From contig NZ_BPEV01000003.1 in NCBI RefSeq assembly GCF_019654955.1, forward strand, positions 1 to 64,000: a stretch of 64,000 bases of DNA, given 5' to 3'. The position numbers and the translations under genes are program-made. This document shows positions 14,163 to 22,048 of the stretch, piece by piece (the stretch's first letter is position 1; each line of letters starts with the position of its first letter). The notes beneath the pieces were generated by a model. That model saw nothing but the letters and a program-made list of their open reading frames with translations. It did not search any database and was not told where the DNA came from. The stretch comes from Shewanella sp. KT0246. GTDB lineage: Bacteria; Pseudomonadota; Gammaproteobacteria; Enterobacterales; Shewanellaceae.

Positions 14163-14879
14163 ATGACAACATTAGCTTATCGACATCCTTTTCAGCCTCA
14201 AATAATGCATGGTTTAATTGGCTGGTTTACGTCGAACTTTATCGAGGCCAGTAGAGCGGGCGTTGGCAGCCAATCTCGTCATCTTTATCAGGCATTATTT
14301 TTAATCCTAACTGTTGTGTTAACTGTTTACGCTACTGGGATCAACGCTGAGGTTTATAATACGCAGCAATTATCAAAGCTGACTGCTGAAGCTAACTCAG
14401 AGCATCAAGGTTCATATTCTACTGGTCGACATTCTAGCGATCGTTATTCTCGGCATTCAGGTTCATCGGTCAGGTGGGGCGTAGGTTATAACAATTATTG
14501 GGGGCCCAGTGTCGGCATTGGTTGGAGCAGTGGTTGGAACAATCGCTGGCATAACCGCTGGGGCTATAATGGTTGGGGGGGAAGATGGGGGAATGGCTGG
14601 CGTTATCCTTATCGATACGACTATTATGATCGTCACTATCGCAATCAATATATGAATAATTCAGCGCCAAGATCTAATTATGTTGAGCCTGTGACCCAAA
14701 TTGAGCCACCTAAAAGAACGACGACCAGTATTCAATATGCTAAAGGGTTAACCCATTTACCTGAAAACGCCCGTGTTATTCAGCGTGATGGCCAAACTTT
14801 TTATGAGTGGGATGGTAAAGAATATTACTTTGATTGGTCTACAGAGCGTTATGTAGTGTTGGAAACACAGCGACAGTAA
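14163..14879 (+). CDS. Hypothetical protein with a Trp/Gly/Asn/Tyr-rich central region
   Basis: A 238-aa protein I do not recognise. A hydrophobic segment (about residues 42-60, LYQALFLILTVVLTVYATG) could be a late signal peptide or an anchor; cleavage near NAE is possible. Residues about 95-165 are low-complexity and rich in W, G, N, R and Y. The C-terminal 50 residues end in repeated aromatic motifs (DGQTFYEWDGKEYYFDWSTERYVVLE), which recall the YYxxDGVYY-type repeats of small surface proteins such as DUF6515; this is only a resemblance. A strong terminator follows. Position next to a repeat-rich pocket suggests accessory DNA. Confidence 0.6.
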   Translation: MTTLAYRHPFQPQIMHGLIGWFTSNFIEASRAGVGSQSRHLYQALFLILTVVLTVYATGINAEVYNTQQLSKLTAEANSEHQGSYSTGRHSSDRYSRHSGSSVRWGVGYNNYWGPSVGIGWSSGWNNRWHNRWGYNGWGGRWGNGWRYPYRYDYYDRHYRNQYMNNSAPRSNYVEPVTQIEPPKRTTTSIQYAKGLTHLPENARVIQRDGQTFYEWDGKEYYFDWSTERYVVLETQRQ

Positions 14880-14960
14880 TTGAATCGAACTAAGATTATT
14901 GTAGATTATCTTTGATTTCTTTAATAACCATCAGATTAACAAACACTTGTCTAGAAAGGT

Positions 14961-14998
14961 AAAAGCCCTAATGAATCCATTTCATTAGGGCTTTTGTG
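14961..14998 (+). terminator. Terminator downstream of the W/G-rich protein gene
   Basis: A perfect 15-bp stem (14961-14975 with 14981-14995), a 5-base loop and a short T-rich tail. Confidence 0.8.
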
Positions 14999-15070
14999 TT
15001 GCATTGTCTTGCGACATTTTATCGTTACATATTGTTGTTTTTATTCCCTGTAACGTACTTCAAAATAGCC

Positions 15071-15098
15071 GCTGTTGTTTTATGGGGGTAACAACAGC
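15071..15098. other. Perfect hairpin 1 of the non-coding region
   Basis: Inverted repeat GCTGTTGTT/AACAACAGC (9 bp) with a 10-base loop containing GGGGG. It is not followed by a T run, so it is not a terminator on the plus strand. Confidence 0.5.
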
Positions 15099-15116
15099 AA
15101 TTATTAAGAATGAACT

Positions 15117-15194
15117 GACAAACTTACTTGTAATTATATTTTTATTATCCCTTCCCAAACGCTTTGCACCGATGAGAAGTTAAGTAAGTTTGTC
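15117..15194. other. Perfect hairpin 2: 13-bp inverted repeat with 52-base loop
   Basis: GACAAACTTACTT at 15117-15129 is the exact reverse complement of 15182-15194. The enclosed 52 bases contain no reading frame. It lies directly before the tandem units and could be their structured leader or a remnant of a mobile element's ends. Confidence 0.5.
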
Positions 15195-15211
15195 GTAACA
15201 CGTTAAGCATG

Positions 15212-15237
15212 AACTTAATGCCTATACCATTAAGTTC
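15212..15237. other. Perfect hairpin 3 (10-bp stem, 6-7 base loop)
   Basis: The repeat AACTTAATG/CATTAAGTT, extended by an outer G-C pair, encloses CCTATAC. It is the last of three perfect inverted repeats in series and ends where the tandem array begins. Confidence 0.5.
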
Positions 15238-15870
15238 AGCTTAATAAGTTGACAAGAAGAGTTGTGATTTCATTAATTTTCGCTGGGGACCGAAAATTAA
15301 TATCAAAACAACCTATCTTGCCGAAACTGCTAATGACTTTTAAACCAACTCGCTTAACTTAGTGGTCAAATGTCACTGTAAAATTGACAAGAAAAATGAC
15401 TGTATCTATCTAACTGTCGCTGGGGGACGAGAGTCAAAGCCACTTATCTTGCCTGAACCGCTAATGATGACTCGAGGCAAACTAATCAAACAATTTGCTC
15501 GAGCTGTCACTGTAAAATTGACAAGAAAAATGACTGTATCTATCTAACTGTCGCTGGGGGACGAGAGTCAAAGCCACTTATCTTGCCTGAACCGCTAATG
15601 ATGACTCGAGGCAAATTGATCAAATAATTTGCTCGAGCTGTCACTATAAAATTGACAAGAAAAGTAACTGTATCTATCTAACTGTCGCTGGGGGACGAAA
15701 GTTAAAGCCACTTATCTTGCCTGAACTGCTAATGATGTTCAGAGGCAAATTGATCAAACAATCTGCTCGAACTGTCACTATAAAATTGACAAGAAAAGTA
15801 ACTGTATCTATCTAACTGTCGCTGGGGGACGAAAGTCAAAGCCACTTATCTTGCCTGAACCGCTAATGAA
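15238..15870. repeat. Tandem array of about five 134-bp structured units
   Basis: Four close copies begin at 15371, 15505, 15639 and 15773 (exact period 134; the last is cut at about 15870), preceded by one diverged copy from about 15238 with a 135-base offset. Each unit has a TTGACA box (15249, 15384, 15518, 15652, 15786), a hairpin with conserved loop CTGGGGGA/CTGGGGAC, the conserved block TATCTTGCC and GCTAATGA, and, in the full recent copies, a second hairpin (CTCGAGGCAAATT/AATTTGCTCGAG type). The period is not a multiple of three and no shared reading frame exists, so it is non-coding. Units are directly adjacent without spacers. Confidence 0.85.
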
Positions 15871-15904
15871 CCAATATGCTAATTATATTCATCGTTTAAA
15901 CAAG

Positions 15905-16162
15905 TTAATTGCCATTAATTGCAACTAGCTGTTGATTTAGTTGCGTTAGCTTACGTTGTAAGTTTGCAATTTCAGCTGTAATGGCACTTTTTTTCATATT
16001 CGATACAAGTTTATTATCTTTTTTTCTTACCCACTGGTAGATGGTTTTAGCTGACACACTGTATTGCTTTGCTACATCCGAAATTAATCGATTATGTTGC
16101 TGAACTTCTACGATCACTTGTTGTTTAAGCTCGTTTGAATAGATTCTATTTAATGTTGTCAT
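15905..16162 (-). CDS. Orphan IS3-type OrfA / HTH transposase protein
   Basis: An 85-aa protein with an N-terminal transposase-type helix-turn-helix (SNELKQQVIVEVQQH, then ISDVAKQYSVSAKTIYQWVRK, residues 9-48) and a C-terminal leucine-zipper-like stretch (IANLQRKLTQLNQQL). This is the layout of IS3-family OrfA. No OrfB integrase with a DDE motif follows; the tandem array lies where it would be. It is therefore probably a remnant of an insertion sequence, or a domesticated DNA-binding protein. Terminal inverted repeats were not identified with certainty. Confidence 0.7.
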   Translation of the reverse strand: MTTLNRIYSNELKQQVIVEVQQHNRLISDVAKQYSVSAKTIYQWVRKKDNKLVSNMKKSAITAEIANLQRKLTQLNQQLVAINGN

Positions 16163-16262
16163 AACGCTACCTACTGCTCTAACTTGTCGATGCTATTGTC
16201 TGTTCCACTTTCTTAACCGAATTCACCAATCTAGGTGGATAAATTAATCTGTTCGCTAAGTG

Positions 16263-16370
16263 CTATTTATTGTTGATGTTGTTTTCAACATCCCAGCAGC
16301 TAAAACCTAGGTGATTGAAGAAGTTCCATTGATACTGGCATTGCTCGAAAATAGCTTTTAAATGATCCAT
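16263..16370 (-). CDS. Small ORF encoding a 35-residue protein
   Basis: A reading frame of 35 codons starting MDHLKAIFEQCQYQWNFFNH and ending DVENNINNK. A strong Shine-Dalgarno sequence (AAAGGAG, 6 bases before the ATG) makes it more than a chance frame. It has two Cys and several aromatic residues but no signal or membrane segment. I do not recognise it. It lies 100 bases upstream of the OrfA-like gene on the same strand, so the two may be co-transcribed. Confidence 0.45.
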   Translation of the reverse strand: MDHLKAIFEQCQYQWNFFNHLGFSCWDVENNINNK

Positions 16371-16939
16371 GTTGTTCTCCTTTATATTTCTCTATGTTCT
16401 AAAGTTGCTGTTATAAAATGAGTCCTACTTACGCAAAATTGGTCAATTATCAACCTACCTCTTAGGTGGTATATATCTATATGGAATACTTGTGCCAATT
16501 TTAAATTAAATATTTATTCGTTTAAAAACAAGTGTTTATATTTTTAAAGTGTTAACTCTAAAATGTGGTTATGCTCCAAGGTGGTGCGATAGTTCTTTTT
16601 TGGTGCAAAGTTAAGATTAATTGGTAAAGTAAATTAACCATAGATTTGGGCTATGATAGTAACCTAACTTTGTGTCAGAAATTTGAACCTGAATATAGGC
16701 ATGAAAGTATTATAAAGCTGAGAGCTGAGAGCTGAGAGCTGAGAGCTGAGAGTGGAATATCATGAATTGTATTCGCTGGTTATTAATATCTATTCAATAG
16801 GGTTAAATGCTTGAACTGTGGACACAAAAAATCCATGCCCCTTTAGCTACACTTAGAGTTGCTTAAGTTACATGGATTTAATTTAGTGCTATGTATTCAA
16901 TATTTTTGTTTTAACTATGTAATATCAACGGCTACATAA
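16371..16939. other. Intergenic region between the small ORF and mgtE
   Basis: 569 bases, AT-rich, without a supported gene. It holds the GCTGAGA microsatellite (16717-16751) and a 9-bp inverted repeat AAATCCATG/CATGGATTT (16829-16837 and 16871-16879). The latter may be the end of the mgtE message but no T run follows on the minus strand. Nothing else was recognised. Confidence 0.5.
16717..16751. repeat. Heptanucleotide microsatellite (GCTGAGA)x5
   Basis: Five exact tandem copies of GCTGAGA. It is outside any gene. Such tracts vary in copy number by replication slippage. Confidence 0.9.
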
Positions 16940-18301
16940 TTACATTAAGAATATTGTTGCCAATCCTAAGAATGCGAATAAGCCAATGACATCTGTGACT
17001 GTGGTAAGTACCATTCCGCCAGCGAGTGCTGGGTCAATGTTTAGCTTTTTAAGAAACAATGGAATACTCGCCCCAGCTAAGCCTGCTACGGTCATGTTGA
17101 TTAGCATCGCGCCACCAATCAAGCCGCCTAAAGCAATGTCATCTTTCCAAAGCCATACCGCGAAAAATACCAGTACTGACCACATGATCCCATTTAGGAA
17201 GCCAATGGCTAATTCTTTACCAATAAGCCAGCGAGAGTTACTTTGACCAATATGACCTAATGCGATACCACGGATAACCAATGCGAGAGTTTGGTTACCT
17301 GCCACACCGCCCATACTGGGCACAATAGTCATTAAGATCGCAATCGTAGCAAACTGCTCTAATGTGCCTTCAAACATGTTGCTGACTGATGCAGCAAGTA
17401 ATGCGGCAAATAAGTTGATGGTGAGCCATAGAGAGCGTCTTAAGGTGCTTTTCATGACGGGGCCGAAGGTATCTTCATCATCATCCATACCTGCCATCCC
17501 CATCATGGAGTGTTCGGCATCTTCACGAATAACATCGACGACATCATCAATGGTGATACGACCTAGCAGCTTTTGTTCTTCATCTACGACAGGAGCTGAG
17601 ATCCAATCATGACGTTCGAATAACTGAGCGACTTCATTGTCAGGCATATCAACCGGGATACTTTCAAGCTCCGGATCCATGATGGTCCGGATAGTTTCAC
17701 TTGGGTTACAGGTGAGTAAATCTGCTAGCCGAACGCCACCAAGTACATGATCGTTTCTATCAACCACATACAAGGTGTCCGTTGTATCGGGTAAGTTGCC
17801 ACGTTGACGAAGGTAGCGCAGTACCACATCAATATTGACGTCAGGGCGTAACGTGACGGTATCTGTGTTCATGATACTGCCAGCAGTATCATCTGGGTAA
17901 GATAATGCTTGTTCGACACGATGGCGATCTTGACTGCTCATTGATTGCAGTACTTTTTTATAAACGGCGTCAGGGAGACTTCTTAAAATGTAGGCTAGAT
18001 CATCGGTATCCATGCCCGAAGTTGCTTGAGCCACTTTTTCAGGTGACATACCACTGATCAAGGAATCTTTAAGTTCTTCACCTAATTCTTCAAGGATCTC
18101 ACCCGCTTGCTCTTGGTCAATGAGTTGCCATAGGACTTGGCGAGTTTTGGGGGGTGAAGATTCAAGAATGAGGGCGACATCGGACGCTGCCATATCATGG
18201 AGCATATTTCTAACGTGGACAAACATGCCGCTGCCCAAAGCTTGAGTCAGCTGATTTAGGCGCTGTTCAGTAAGCTCGCTGTCGATTACTTCGATACCCA
18301 T
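16940..18301 (-). CDS. mgtE: MgtE magnesium transporter
   Basis: A 453-aa Mg2+ channel/transporter. The N-terminal superhelical MgtE domain (about residues 30-135) is followed by two CBS domains (about 135-260) and five C-terminal membrane helices (about 285-453), which include the family pore segment (VPSMGGVAGNQTLALVIRG). Known family members gate closed when the CBS and N domains bind Mg2+. It is monocistronic here, with about 380 bases before the next gene upstream. Confidence 0.94.
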   Translation of the reverse strand: MGIEVIDSELTEQRLNQLTQALGSGMFVHVRNMLHDMAASDVALILESSPPKTRQVLWQLIDQEQAGEILEELGEELKDSLISGMSPEKVAQATSGMDTDDLAYILRSLPDAVYKKVLQSMSSQDRHRVEQALSYPDDTAGSIMNTDTVTLRPDVNIDVVLRYLRQRGNLPDTTDTLYVVDRNDHVLGGVRLADLLTCNPSETIRTIMDPELESIPVDMPDNEVAQLFERHDWISAPVVDEEQKLLGRITIDDVVDVIREDAEHSMMGMAGMDDDEDTFGPVMKSTLRRSLWLTINLFAALLAASVSNMFEGTLEQFATIAILMTIVPSMGGVAGNQTLALVIRGIALGHIGQSNSRWLIGKELAIGFLNGIMWSVLVFFAVWLWKDDIALGGLIGGAMLINMTVAGLAGASIPLFLKKLNIDPALAGGMVLTTVTDVIGLFAFLGLATIFLM

Positions 18302-18683
18302 TCGCCACTCCTCAAAATTTCGATTGCCAATATTAACTTAACAGGGTGGAAAGGGAGAAGCAGTTTCTATTTCTAGCTAAGTTACTGCATAAAAATTAAG
18401 CGCTTTATTGATTTTTGTTAGACTTTAATGAGTATAGCGAACAAAACAAATATAAAGAGAATTAACTGCTAAAGTCGTCGTATTGCTGGAGTTATTTGTT
18501 AGTTTTTTATGTTGCTTTATTGATAACAGAACCTATTTAAGCGAAAGGTTCAGAGGGGAGTTGGCACTATTAACCTAGTAACCAAGCCAAAGGTACTCGC
18601 TTATCATAAAGTTGGTTAAAAATCTGAGTGTGAAAGAAGAGCTTAGTAGTTAGGTTGAACTATGGGGTTTAGAGTGAGAAAAC
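18302..18683. other. Intergenic region between mgtE and ptsO
   Basis: 382 bases, between two minus-strand genes. It should hold the mgtE promoter and the end of the ptsO transcript. I saw no convincing terminator, RNA element or reading frame; an Mg2+-responsive leader could not be recognised by eye. Confidence 0.4.
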
Positions 18684-18956
18684 TTAGCTTTCTTCGTCAA
18701 ACTTATCATTAATCAATTTGCACACCGCATCTAAGGCTTGCTGCGCATCAATACCTGTTGCCTCAACGGTTATGATCTTACCAATGCCACTTTCTAGCAT
18801 TAATAGCCCTAACACACTGGCTGCGCTGGCTTGTTTTTCGCCTTGGATAAGCGTGATGCTCGCTTCAAACTCGGTGGCTAAAATAGCCAGCTTGGTGGCT
18901 GCTCTAGCATGGAGCCCGAGTTTGTTACTGATTGTAATTTCTTTTGAAATACTCAT
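18684..18956 (-). CDS. ptsO: NPr, HPr-like phosphocarrier of the nitrogen PTS
   Basis: A 90-aa HPr-family protein with the phosphorylation site in KLGLHARAATKLA and the regulatory-Ser region KQASAASVLGLLMLESGIGK. It accepts phosphate from EI-Ntr and passes it to PtsN. ATG 18956 gives 90 aa, the length of E. coli NPr; an in-frame GTG at 18968 overlaps the rapZ stop (GTGA) and would add four residues, so either start is possible. Coupled with rapZ. Confidence 0.92.
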   Translation of the reverse strand: MSISKEITISNKLGLHARAATKLAILATEFEASITLIQGEKQASAASVLGLLMLESGIGKIITVEATGIDAQQALDAVCKLINDKFDEES

Positions 18957-18964
18957 TGTGGTTG

Positions 18965-19810
18965 TCACAAGTCGAGCTCTCTGTGACGGGCGCTGACTTG
19001 GTGCTTACTATTACTAAAGCGCTTTGTTAGTTGGTCGGCAATGTAGACCGAGCGGTGTTGACCGCCTGTGCAACCGATGGCTATGGTTAAGTAGCTGCGA
19101 TTATTGCGTTCAAGGTGCGGCATCCACGTTTCAAATAGGTTTTCAATTTGCCAAATGAATTTATTGACTAAAGGTTGTCTGCCTAAAAATTCTTGTACTG
19201 GCTGGTCTAAGCCAGTTAGCGGTCTTAGCTCTGTTTCCCAATGCGGATTGGGTAAGAAGCGCACATCAAACATAAAGTCTGCTTCAGCTGGCATACCATG
19301 CTTGAAGCCAAATGACTCAAAATGAATCACTAACTCTTTATCGATACTGCCCATTAATATTTGTCTGACTTGATCGCTGAGATCATAAATGGTCAATTGA
19401 GAGGTATCAATGTAGTGATCGACCATTTTAGCAATCGGTTCGAGTAAACGACCTTCTAGCTGAATAGCTTCTTGTAGCGAAATTTGGTTTTTAGATAGAG
19501 GATGTAATCGACGGGTTTCACTGTAGCGTTTAAGTAGAACCTGATCATTTGAGTTTAGAAATAAACTAATGATAGTCGTATCATCAGATAATAAGGCTAT
19601 TTGCTCTTCTAGAACCTTGCCTTGCTCTTCAATATTTCGAACATCGACACTGATGGCGACAAGTTCGTTATTTCCCTTGAGCTGCTCAAGCAAACTGCCA
19701 ATAAGTGGTAGAGGCAGGTTATCAACACAGTAATAACCTAAATCTTCTAATACCCTAAGTGCAACTGATTTACCTGAGCCTGATCGTCCTGATACGATGA
19801 CAAGTTTCAT
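18965..19810 (-). CDS. rapZ: RapZ, RNase adapter and nucleotide-binding protein
   Basis: A 281-aa protein with N-terminal Walker A GRSGSGKS (residues 8-15) and the conserved C-terminal region [15 protein letters not shown]. In E. coli RapZ presents the sRNA GlmZ to RNase E and so controls glucosamine-6-phosphate synthesis. The start codon overlaps the end of ptsN by four bases (ATGA). The gene order rpoN-hpf-ptsN-rapZ-ptsO matches enterics. Confidence 0.95.
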
Positions 19811-20250
19811 GCAGTTATAACCTGATATAGTTCTGTAGCGTCATGACTCTTTCGAAGTCGCTTAAGGATTAATTTATCACTCAGTTTTTCAGCCATGGTA
19901 GACAGCGTACTTAAATGCTGTTGGCATTGATCTGAAGGAACTAGCAGTGCAAATAATATATCCACGGGTTTCTTGTCGATAGCATCAAACTCAATGCCTT
20001 CTTCACACTTGATCAAAATGGCTATCGGGTGTTCGATATCATTTAATCGACCATGGGGAATAGCTATGCCATTTCCAATACCTGTACTACCCATTTTTTC
20101 ACGTGCTATTAAACTTTCAAAAATAGCCTGTGATGATAGGGTTGGGTACTGGGCAGCCATTAAATCGCTGATGAGTTCCAGTACTTTTTTCTTACTGCCC
20201 GGCGTGGCGCAGGTGGTGCACGCCGGTTGCAGAATGGTGCGAAGTTCCAT
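19807..20250 (-). CDS. ptsN: PtsN, EIIA component of the nitrogen PTS
   Basis: A 147-aa EIIA-Ntr protein. The phosphorylated His lies in [13 protein letters not shown]. Unlike many homologues the first 25 residues contain [12 protein letters not shown], an unusual Cys-rich stretch (two Cys plus one nearby) before the domain proper. It receives phosphate from NPr and controls potassium uptake and other processes. It starts two bases after the hpf stop codon. Confidence 0.94.
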
Positions 20251-20252
20251 TG

Positions 20253-20540
20253 TTAGTGTTTAATTAACTTCTCTTTATGTTTAATTACCTGACGGTCTAA
20301 TTTGTCTATCAGGGCGTCAATTGCGACATACATATCTGCGTTTTGAGATACGGCAAAAACTTCACCTCCTTTGAGGTGTAATTTTGCTTCAGCAATTTGT
20401 TGCAGCTTCTGAACATTGAGCACAACGTGAACATTATTGATCTGTTCGAAGTGTCGTTCAAGCTTTGAAAACTTAGTTTGTACATACTCACGTAAAGATT
20501 GCGTGATTTCTACATGGTGCCCAGTCAGATTAATTTGCAT
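20253..20540 (-). CDS. hpf: Ribosome hibernation promoting factor (short form)
   Basis: A 95-aa HPF/YfiA-family protein (MQINLTGHHVEITQSLREYV, then FSKLERHFEQINNVHVVL). It is the short gammaproteobacterial form, without the C-terminal dimerisation domain of long HPF. It binds the 30S decoding centre and promotes 100S dimers in stationary phase. It lies 23 bases downstream of rpoN. Confidence 0.94.
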   Translation of the reverse strand: MQINLTGHHVEITQSLREYVQTKFSKLERHFEQINNVHVVLNVQKLQQIAEAKLHLKGGEVFAVSQNADMYVAIDALIDKLDRQVIKHKEKLIKH

Positions 20541-20563
20541 AGATCATCCTCCATTACAAAGGC

Positions 20564-22048
20564 TTATAAGCTCTTGCGTTGGTTTGAGGGAGGGATGAGC
20601 ATTGCTTCACGATATTTGGCGATCGTACGCCGAGCAACATTAATCCCTTGTTCAGCCAATAGCGTCGCCATTTTACTATCGCTAAGTGGCTTTTTCTGGT
20701 TTTCCGCTGCAACAAGCTTCTTAATAAAGGCACGAATTGCAGTAGAAGAACATTCTCCGCCATCATCAGTACTAACGTGGCTAGAGAAGAAATATTTTAG
20801 TTCAAAAAGTCCGCGAGGGGTGTGCATATATTTTTGAGTCGTCACACGAGAAATCGTCGACTCATGCATTTCAACTGCTTCAGCAATATCATTAAGCACC
20901 ATCGGTTTCATGGCTTCTTCACCAAACTCAAAAAATCCTTGCTGAAATTGCACAATACAATTGGCCACTTTTAACAGGGTTTCATTGCGACTCTCAATAC
21001 TCTTGATAAACCATTTTGCTTCTTGTAAGTGACCACGAATAAATTGGCTATCAGACTGACTTGCAGACCCTTTTGCCATGGCTGCGTATTGCTGATTCAC
21101 ACCAATTTTGGGCATGTTATCTGGATTGAGCTCTACGACCCAGCGGCCACTTTTCTTAAATACAGTCACATCAGGTATGACATATTCGTCTTTAATCGGT
21201 GTTATTTGTAAACCTGGACGCGGATTCAAGGTTTGAATAAATTGAATCGCTTCGCGTAAATCATCTTCTTTAAGCTTGGTTTTACGCATTAATAAGCGAA
21301 AGTCGCGGCCAGCAATTAAATCAAGGTGTTCACTAATGAGCAATTTTACATTGTCGATGCAGGGGATTTCATCTGGATATTGACCAAGTTGAATCATGAG
21401 ACATTCACTTAAGTCTCTCGCTGCCACTCCTACAGGGTCAAAATGTTGCACGCGTTTAAGTACAGCTTCAACTTCGTCGAGTTCTATATCTTCAAGACCT
21501 AAGGCCTGCAATATGTCCTCAGTTGATTGGGTTAAGTAACCGCGTTCATCAACGGCGTCGATAATAGCTGTGGCAATAACAAGATCGTTTTCAGAAAAAG
21601 GAGTCAGGTTTTTTTGCCACTCAAGGTGTTCATATAAGCCTTCGGTGGTTTCACCTTGAAAAGGCATATCGTCATCACGAGCGACGGCCCCAGAGCCTGA
21701 ACTAGGCGATGCGGTATAGACTTCATCCCATGTAGTATCCATCGGGAGATCTTCTGGCATCGACTCTTTGGTTAATGATTCCGTGGTATCAACGGTAGAG
21801 GTGTCTTTTTCAACGGTAACTTGGCTATTATCGCTAAAATCAGTGTCGGTTTGCTGGGCGTTTTCTTTTACGGGTTCTTTGGCTTTAGCAAACTCATCTT
21901 CGAGCTCAAGGAGAGGGTTTGAGTCAAGTGCTTGTTGAATTTCTTGCTGTAGCTCCAATGAGGAAAGTTGCAATAAGCGTATGGCTTGTTGCAACTGAGG
22001 GGTCATCGTCAGGTGTTGACCCATTTTGAGTTGGAGTGAGGCTTTCAT
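20564..22048 (-). CDS. rpoN: RNA polymerase sigma-54 factor RpoN
   Basis: A 494-aa sigma-54. Region I is Gln/Leu-rich ([20 protein letters not shown]), an acidic variable linker follows (about 55-130), then the core-binding region, the helix-turn-helix and the RpoN box [10 protein letters not shown] close to the C-terminus. It recognises GG/GC (-24/-12) promoters and needs AAA+ activators. One such promoter lies in this window at 57606-57622. Confidence 0.96.

Follow-up and report, generated by a model that had tools for sequence, protein, structure and literature searches.

A tandem array of CCCC-loop hairpins beside a conserved HTH_Tnp_1 gene in many Shewanella: a possible undescribed regulatory RNA with a sigma-54-like promoter

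Results

Organization of the locus

The window (the whole stretch of 64,000 nt from Shewanella sp. KT0246 that was analysed) contains on its minus strand, near rapZ and mgtE, what is, judging from its sequence, a compact locus composed of an activator half-site, a promoter, a micropeptide gene, an HTH_Tnp_1 gene, hairpins and a terminator (Table 1). The ORFs upstream of the locus are taken here to be mgtE and rapZ, and the translations of the cluster at 16940-22048 presumably represent mgtE, npr/ptsH-like, rapZ, ptsN, hpf and rpoN; since the locus adjoins this cluster, its RpoN-type promoter would lie near rpoN itself. A perfect 7-bp tandem repeat (AGCTGAG, 5.3 copies) occupies 16716-16752 between mgtE and the promoter, and 13/26-bp repeats were found in the comparable stretch of TC10 (L069 3178-3371) and S. 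olleyana (L070 3265-3367).

Table 1. Features of the locus in the window, in order of position.
Feature	Position	Strand	Basis
Terminator-like hairpin AAAAGCCCTAATGAA/TTCATTAGGGCTTTT, potentially for both strands	14961..14995	-	15-nt arms, 100% complementary
Hairpin with A-rich loop GGGAAUAAAAACAACAAUA, a run of ARN triplets	15023..15055	-	folding (L039)
Hairpin GCUGUUGUU-ACCCCCAUAA-AACAACAGC, sixth CCCC loop, beyond the tandem array	15071..15098	-	folding (L039)
RNA unit 1, diverged, distal; loop GUCCCCAG on a long stem	15247..15336	-	unit pattern, fold, covariance model
Spacer, units 1/2	15337..15381	-	sequence
RNA unit 2, loop UCCCCCAG	15382..15467	-	unit pattern, fold, covariance model
Spacer, units 2/3, potential hairpin (CTCGAG/CTCGAG)	15468..15515	-	pairing by eye, unscored; core plus spacer folded
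RNA unit 3, loop UCCCCCAG, core equal to unit 2 core	15516..15601	-	unit pattern, fold, covariance model
Spacer, units 3/4, potential hairpin	15602..15649	-	pairing by eye, unscored
RNA unit 4, loop UCCCCCAG	15650..15735	-	unit pattern, fold, covariance model
Spacer, units 4/5, potential hairpin	15736..15783	-	pairing by eye, unscored
RNA unit 5, nearest the gene, loop UCCCCCAG	15784..15869	-	unit pattern, fold, covariance model
85-aa HTH_Tnp_1 (IS3 OrfA-like) protein	15905..16162	-	PF01527, E 1.5e-9
35-aa micropeptide MDHLKAIFEQCQYQWNFFNHLGFSCWDVENNINNK, Shine-Dalgarno-like AAGGAGAA in front	16263..16370	-	coordinates
Sigma-54-like promoter TTGGCAC-N5-TTCCATA	16480..16498	-	motif conservation
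Activator half-sites: TTTGCACCA (16601-16609) and GCACCA within CGCACCACCTTGGAGCA (16572-16588)	16582..16609	-	conservation

The tandem 134-bp units described in the sequence-only reading, four near-identical and one diverged, were recovered by TRF (period of 134 bp, 3.7 copies, 95% matches at 15371-15869) and number five, four of them recent. Repeat searches of the window revealed five copies each of a 27-nt stem-loop block and of a 34-nt block (TATCTTGCC...GCTAATGA), the latter being the constant block said to follow the hairpin; the stem ascribed to the old unit is also present, as a perfect 11-bp stem in the diverged unit W_1. The extent originally given, 15238-15870, holds for the units but not for the feature as a whole, which continues on the minus strand past 15238 into two more hairpins and then a terminator-like hairpin reaching 14961. 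The first of these hairpins displays a CCCCC loop, and the ARN-triplet run in the loop of the second is presumably of the Hfq distal-face type. The terminator-like hairpin is also present in the genomes G031, G028, G079 and G107. In the window it lies between the array and a 238-aa ORF on the opposite strand, past the array end (14163-14879), which is rich in Tyr, Trp, Gly and Arg and gave no Pfam match at E 0.001. A coding repeat was considered and rejected: core-plus-spacer lengths range over 127-147 nt with no fixed multiple of 3, so the repeat is non-coding, and array ORFs do not exceed 61 aa.

Conservation of the two small genes

The 85-aa protein scored 38.4 bits against HTH_Tnp_1 (gathering score 24.1) and is related to parts of IS3/IS66 transposases; no OrfB-like ORF of at least 80 aa lies beside its gene in the window. 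AlphaFold predicted a helix-turn-helix followed by a long C-terminal helix (mean pLDDT 82.6), and a Foldseek search with this model returned no matches at E <= 0.001, the weak matches including HTH proteins such as TnpE (2rn7, E 0.19). Of 129 Shewanella genomes, 78 had a match to the protein at E <= 1e-6, the weakest of these matches (1e-6 to 1e-8) being of doubtful orthology, and 58 had one at E <= 1e-10; part of the 78 genomes was examined closely. Each genome held a single match in 77 of the 78 cases, G052 holding two. An order-wide profile search matched 39 of 394 genomes, including 16 outside Shewanella with weak matches (best E 1.9e-14, most between 1e-9 and 1e-12).

The HTH frame was sought in 76 loci, 8 of which gave no motif match, and the remaining 68 were reduced to 40 distinct loci, of which 36 with at least 600 nt downstream entered the hairpin analyses. 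All 26 named loci belong to Shewanella, and the first residues of the ORFs upstream of them match window mgtE, window rapZ or a similar protein. The laboratory strain ANA-3 also has the locus (L088). Against the three nearest orthologues, dN/dS of the HTH_Tnp_1 gene was 0.03-0.06, with dS (1.3-1.8) close to saturation. Of 703 pairs drawn from 38 of the 40 loci, 80 had a usable dS, and their median dN/dS was 0.09; at the sequence level, these values show purifying selection on the protein. Related micropeptides were recognized by a strict pattern in 29 of the 40 loci, with a median dN/dS of 0.19 over 107 of 406 pairs, and six micropeptides searched against Pfam gave zero matches at the cut-off.

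Conserved promoter motif

The motif TTGGCAC occurs upstream in 37 of the 40 loci. In the window it begins 336 nt before the HTH start codon (16498 versus 16162), and across loci the distance is 249-423 nt when measured from a position 90 nt into the open frame. Two peaks of information content stand out, one at TTGGCAC and the other at TT.CATA, the latter starting twelve bases after the first base of TTGGCAC, a spacing that we take to be that of a sigma-54 -24/-12 promoter; the -24 element fits the consensus, and the -12 element is without the usual G of GC. A TGCACC/GCACCA half-site lies 88-90 bp upstream of TTGGCAC in 33 of these 37 loci, while in the other four it was found at -101 to -122 (two loci) or was missing (two loci). 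Such a conserved upstream half-site fits an enhancer-binding activator. The half-site resembles NtrC sites. A palindrome search of the own genome with up to 2 mismatches gave 21 places versus 8 for the reversed pattern, one of the places being 16572-16588; NtrC as the activator is suggested, but only suggested, by this sequence match.

The structured strand and its covariation

Folding of the four recent units revealed a weak structure on the plus strand (-10.7 to -11.5 kcal/mol) and a much stronger one on the minus strand (-24.3 to -24.5 kcal/mol), because A.C mismatches on the plus strand turn into G.U pairs on the other. RNAalifold of an alignment (A1) of 25 distinct units from four genomes, in which the identical W_3, the contig-end copies of G079 and incomplete units at the contig breaks of G028 and at the end of C58 were left out, gave 22 pairs at -18.56 kcal/mol on the minus strand versus 4 pairs at -1.57 kcal/mol on the other, and the minus strand was the more stable in 25 of 25 units. 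The consensus structure contains 93 G.U cells versus 5 A.C cells, a count to which the comparison of energies is to be preferred as the fairer one because the structure was derived on the minus strand. The G-rich loop on the plus strand proposed in the sequence-only reading is therefore replaced by a C-rich constant loop, CCCC(C)A, on the minus strand (UCCCCCAG-like in the window), which is also the strand of the adjacent HTH_Tnp_1 gene. The hairpin noticed there is real, but it makes up just the inner arm of the fold, enclosed by a second covarying helix and by a closing stem on the outside (GGCAAGA/UCUUGUC); some units carry a side hairpin.

Comparison with shuffled alignments revealed covariation above expectation on three of five measures: the covariation score (0.263 versus 0.186 +/- 0.008, with 0 of 500 shuffles as high and slid controls at 0.03-0.11), the fraction of paired cells (96.9% versus 92.8%, reached in 0 of 500) and the number of cells changed on both sides (22 versus 6.1, reached in 0 of 500). 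No clear excess was seen in the number of pairs with both sides changed (5 versus 3.0, reached in 28 of 500) or in extra pair types (18 versus 18.0, reached in 318 of 500), and the significance of all shuffle comparisons is overstated because the unit sequences are related. Column pair 27-90, for example, appears as CG, GC, UA and GU. The evidence for covariation is good for helices 2 and 3, and the outer helix is silent on the question because it hardly varies. Selection on a folded nucleic acid, as originally proposed, is thus supported at the level of sequence by the covariation and, in the wider genus, by the constant CCCC loop on differing stems, although on the opposite strand from the one first assigned.

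Outside the window clade, the strand cannot be assigned as clearly. The sense strand was the more stable in only 12 of 36 loci. Within a further clade, represented by 13 loci, it was the more stable in 13 of the 21 units and in 5 of the 11 first modules; alifold energies of that clade favoured the sense strand for both units (-20.1 versus -14.3) and first modules (-31.9 versus -25.6), with few compensatory changes (1 of 26 and 3 of 29 pairs). By energy, therefore, strandedness outside the window clade is ambiguous.

Spread and evolution of the array

In the own genome the units are confined to this locus, the search giving otherwise two matches of 16 and 21 nt (E 0.56). A search with one unit in 97 Shewanella genomes returned four positives (the own genome, G028, G031 and G079), always as arrays, and a covariance model of the unit returned 5 of 129 genomes, adding only G107; since it finds the window clade and G107 only, this model is unfit for the whole genus. 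The unit sequence is thus clade-specific, and the architecture, as judged from the loops described below, is widespread in the genus.

Unit counts by pattern were five in the window, seven in G031, eight in the main array of G079 and at least six in G028, where the array is split across two contigs. Comparison of 14 pairs of units revealed that the distal unit of the window is 94% identical to that of G031 and 64% identical to its own neighbour, unit 2; the distal units of G028 and G079 are 96% identical. Inner pairs within one array reached 97-98% identity (W_2/W_5 and G079_4/G079_7), G079_2 shared 95% identity with G028a_2 and 75% with the adjacent G079_3, and G031_7 shared 81% with G031_2. 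These sequence comparisons look like homogenization of inner units with conservation of the array edges.

Array units also occur at the ends of two further G079 contigs, C83 and C58 (L036 1-420; L037 5170-5220), near frames that we take to be integrase-like (beside the copy on C83) and acyltransferase-like (containing the copy on C58). They probably arose as assembly joins, since C83, N aside, duplicates units 4-6 of the main array; they may be a second, mobile copy.

CCCC and A-rich loops across the genus

In the 800 nt downstream of the gene at 36 loci, 116 of 170 CCCC runs fell in hairpin loops, versus 3-12 of 68-81 in ten dinucleotide shuffles. Folding of 1200 nt with a pairing span of 160 gave 139 CCCC loops, spread over 32 of the 36 loci and compared with 7-14 in shuffles, and no GGGG loop in the 36 loci, the shuffles likewise giving just 0-2. 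Perfect-stem CCCC hairpins numbered 46 in 17 of 36 loci versus a shuffle mean of 6.0, and those with GGGG numbered 5. Controls were low: 14 CCCC loops among 120 pieces of 1200 nt drawn at random from the own genome and 2 in 26 pieces upstream of the gene at the named loci, with a maximum of one per piece in both. Four divergent loci (L091, L092, L105 and L112) lacked a CCCC hairpin loop. Stems vary among clades (for example UUUAGCUUUCG, CAACU, GUGUUUUAGC and GCAUCA) and the loop core is mostly CCCC(C)A; an RCAAG...CUUGYC pair 60-330 nt apart was present in 30 of 36 loci, a count made without a shuffled control.

A second motif, AMAAUAAUAA, was found in 32 copies in 20 of 36 loci within 1000 nt (shuffle mean 0.42); 29 of the 32 copies were mostly unpaired and 25 lay in hairpin loops. 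Loops with four consecutive ARN triplets numbered 29 in 20 of 36 loci, versus 0-1 in shuffles and 2 in 146 control pieces; no ARN loop was detected in the other 16 loci.

Comparison with known systems

At the gathering score, none of 4227 Rfam families matched the window or any of eight named loci, and ten sub-threshold matches in 14880-16200 were judged to be chance. Among the papers listed for Shewanella sRNAs, none described the locus in its title or the opening of its abstract. The main text of the S. piezotolerans sRNA paper (PMC5471319) mentions no mgtE, magnesium, tandem, rpoN, sigma or transposase, and passages from two papers dealing with sibling and sponge sRNAs (PMC12559287, PMC4211561) contain no such locus. 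The statement that no described Shewanella element has this layout thus stood within these sources.

The nearest counterparts lie elsewhere. CcsR/cuckoo RNAs carry a C-rich anti-Shine-Dalgarno loop motif, CUCCUCCC. According to passages of PMC10253847, a small protein gene and a cluster of homologous CcsR RNAs share one transcript that ends in a terminator. The Shewanella locus is similar to CcsR1-4/cuckoo (CIN1, alphaproteobacteria) in that a small protein gene, an RNA cluster and a terminator follow each other by sequence, and in its C-rich loops on tandem hairpins, which here are recognized by sequence and predicted fold. It differs in its loops, which read CCCC(C)A and do not contain CUCCUCCC, in its promoter, which is sigma-54-like instead of RpoHI/RpoHII, and in the extra HTH_Tnp_1 gene. 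Membership of DUF1127 was rejected: PF06568 was found in 0 of 40 Shewanella genomes with a positive E. coli control, and none of the six micropeptides gave a credible Pfam match.

CrcZ/CrcY of Pseudomonas and Azotobacter, in the excerpted text of PMC5429807, have an RpoN promoter, upstream activator sites and several AAnAAnAA loop motifs, and Hfq binds A-rich motifs of this kind in the RpoN-dependent CrcZ. By sequence, the Shewanella locus resembles CrcZ in its conserved -24-like element and half-site, the -12 element being off at one position, and in predicted A-rich loops at 20 of 36 loci; unlike CrcZ, it has repeated CCCC-loop units and a protein-coding 5' half, and no ARN loops were detected in 16 of 36 loci. 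The sponges CsrB and RsmZ carry one loop motif in many copies per RNA, but their loop core is GGA, whereas that of the Shewanella units is CCCC(C)A on the RNA strand. The predicted protein resembles IS3 OrfA in its HTH_Tnp_1 domain and long C-terminal helix; unlike OrfA, it has one match per genome (77 of 78), evolves under purifying selection and is without an OrfB-like neighbour in the window.

Discussion

The anatomy of the locus, the structured strand in the window clade, the covariation, the constancy of the loop, the promoter motif and the purifying selection can be read from the sequences themselves. Our own reading is that of a trans-acting regulatory RNA array that would work like the CcsR/cuckoo sRNAs and CrcZ while being neither. 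The locus would be an operon of the sigma-54 type, with a regulatory RNA of several modules as its 3' half. Driven by an enhancer-binding activator, what is presumably a single transcript of ~1.5 kb would carry, in order, the micropeptide, the HTH_Tnp_1 protein and the array of hairpin modules. Each module would consist of a closing stem (often RCAAG...CUUGYC) around an arm with a CCCC(C)A loop, joined in many loci by an additional arm with a AACAAUAAUAA-type loop. The A-rich loops would bind Hfq, the C-rich loops would pair with G-rich stretches of a few putative target RNAs, and the copy number of the array would set the dose. We consider such action in trans, with base-pairing by the C-rich loops and Hfq on the A-rich loops, quite possible, and put it forward tentatively.

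TGGGG, the complement of the loop core, showed no enrichment within 30 nt upstream of predicted starts (3 of 328, ~4 expected from mononucleotide shuffles), a count that depends on crudely predicted starts (328 in 464 kb). The C-rich loops are therefore unlikely to act as general anti-Shine-Dalgarno elements and may still have a few specific targets. TGGGGG occurs within -50 to +30 at 2 of the 328 predicted starts, one of them that of the window gene starting MEFTMGLSEGVAWPWPIAVYLFLAGISGGS, where it lies at -24 and is conceivably a target of a C-rich loop.

The absence of enriched pairing partners at start codons would suit a protein sponge, in which the loops sequester Hfq (A-rich loops) or a binder of the CCCC loop, possibly the HTH_Tnp_1 protein. 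To our knowledge, however, the most constant loop, CCCC, is no Hfq motif, and HTH_Tnp_1 domains are DNA-binding, which counts against an RNA-sponge role of the predicted protein; the A-rich loops, moreover, were detected in only 20 of 36 loci. The presence of one short loop in many copies per RNA and the display of A-rich motifs in loops, as in the excerpted account of the RpoN-dependent CrcZ (PMC5429807), speak for a sponge, which we nevertheless regard as somewhat unlikely.

The position of the array directly downstream of the gene on the same strand, in a hairpin scan that covered the downstream side and, as a control, upstream pieces, and the conservation of that gene, nearly always in single copy, might instead reflect a cis role of the hairpins, which as a 3' UTR would protect the micropeptide/HTH_Tnp_1 mRNA or serve its autoregulation. 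Protection needs neither an invariant loop on changing stems nor an expansion to eight units, and a role of this kind seems distinctly unlikely to us. Much the same holds for a bolder proposal, which we think improbable, namely that a domesticated transposase-type protein (the HTH_Tnp_1 protein), the micropeptide and the fast-evolving tandem RNA from the same sigma-54 transcript would form a new ribonucleoprotein regulator, with the CCCC loop recognized by the HTH protein or another factor and the copy number serving as an evolving dosage dial.

The kinship of HTH_Tnp_1 to IS3/IS66 transposase parts, the tandem and partly homogenized repeats and the G079 units at two further contig ends could also indicate a DNA element, that is, an IS3-like remnant with HTH_Tnp_1 binding or transposition sites, perhaps as folded single-stranded DNA. 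This is made very unlikely by the good folding of one strand alone in the window clade, by the restriction of the own-genome units to this locus, by the purifying selection on the gene without an OrfB-like neighbour in the window and by the conserved promoter motif. Least probable, and barely credible to us, is a cluster of independent sRNAs with one promoter per unit (TTGACA on the plus strand; TTGACA...TATCTA with 17-nt spacing by eye in the recent window units), since the plus strand folds poorly and TTGACAAG holds one side of the closing stem; a promoter scan gave 2 sites in all (5.3 expected) and none at the TTGACA of the units, which does not count against such a cluster because its rule for the last base of the -10 element would exclude TATCTA.

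Shewanella is a model genus for extracellular respiration in which regulatory RNAs are little known. Judged by its sequence, the locus seems to encode, in many Shewanella, a regulatory RNA that has not been described before and that is preceded by a sigma-54-like promoter. Across much of the genus it stays beside the same genes and retains its loop, while the stems are replaced and the number of units changes; it thus offers a clear and testable case of selection for the display of a loop over sequence. If it is a regulator, it would link an RpoN-type signal with post-transcriptional control in bacteria other than Pseudomonas and the alphaproteobacteria, and the HTH_Tnp_1 gene suggests that the DNA-binding domain of a transposase has been put to a second use.
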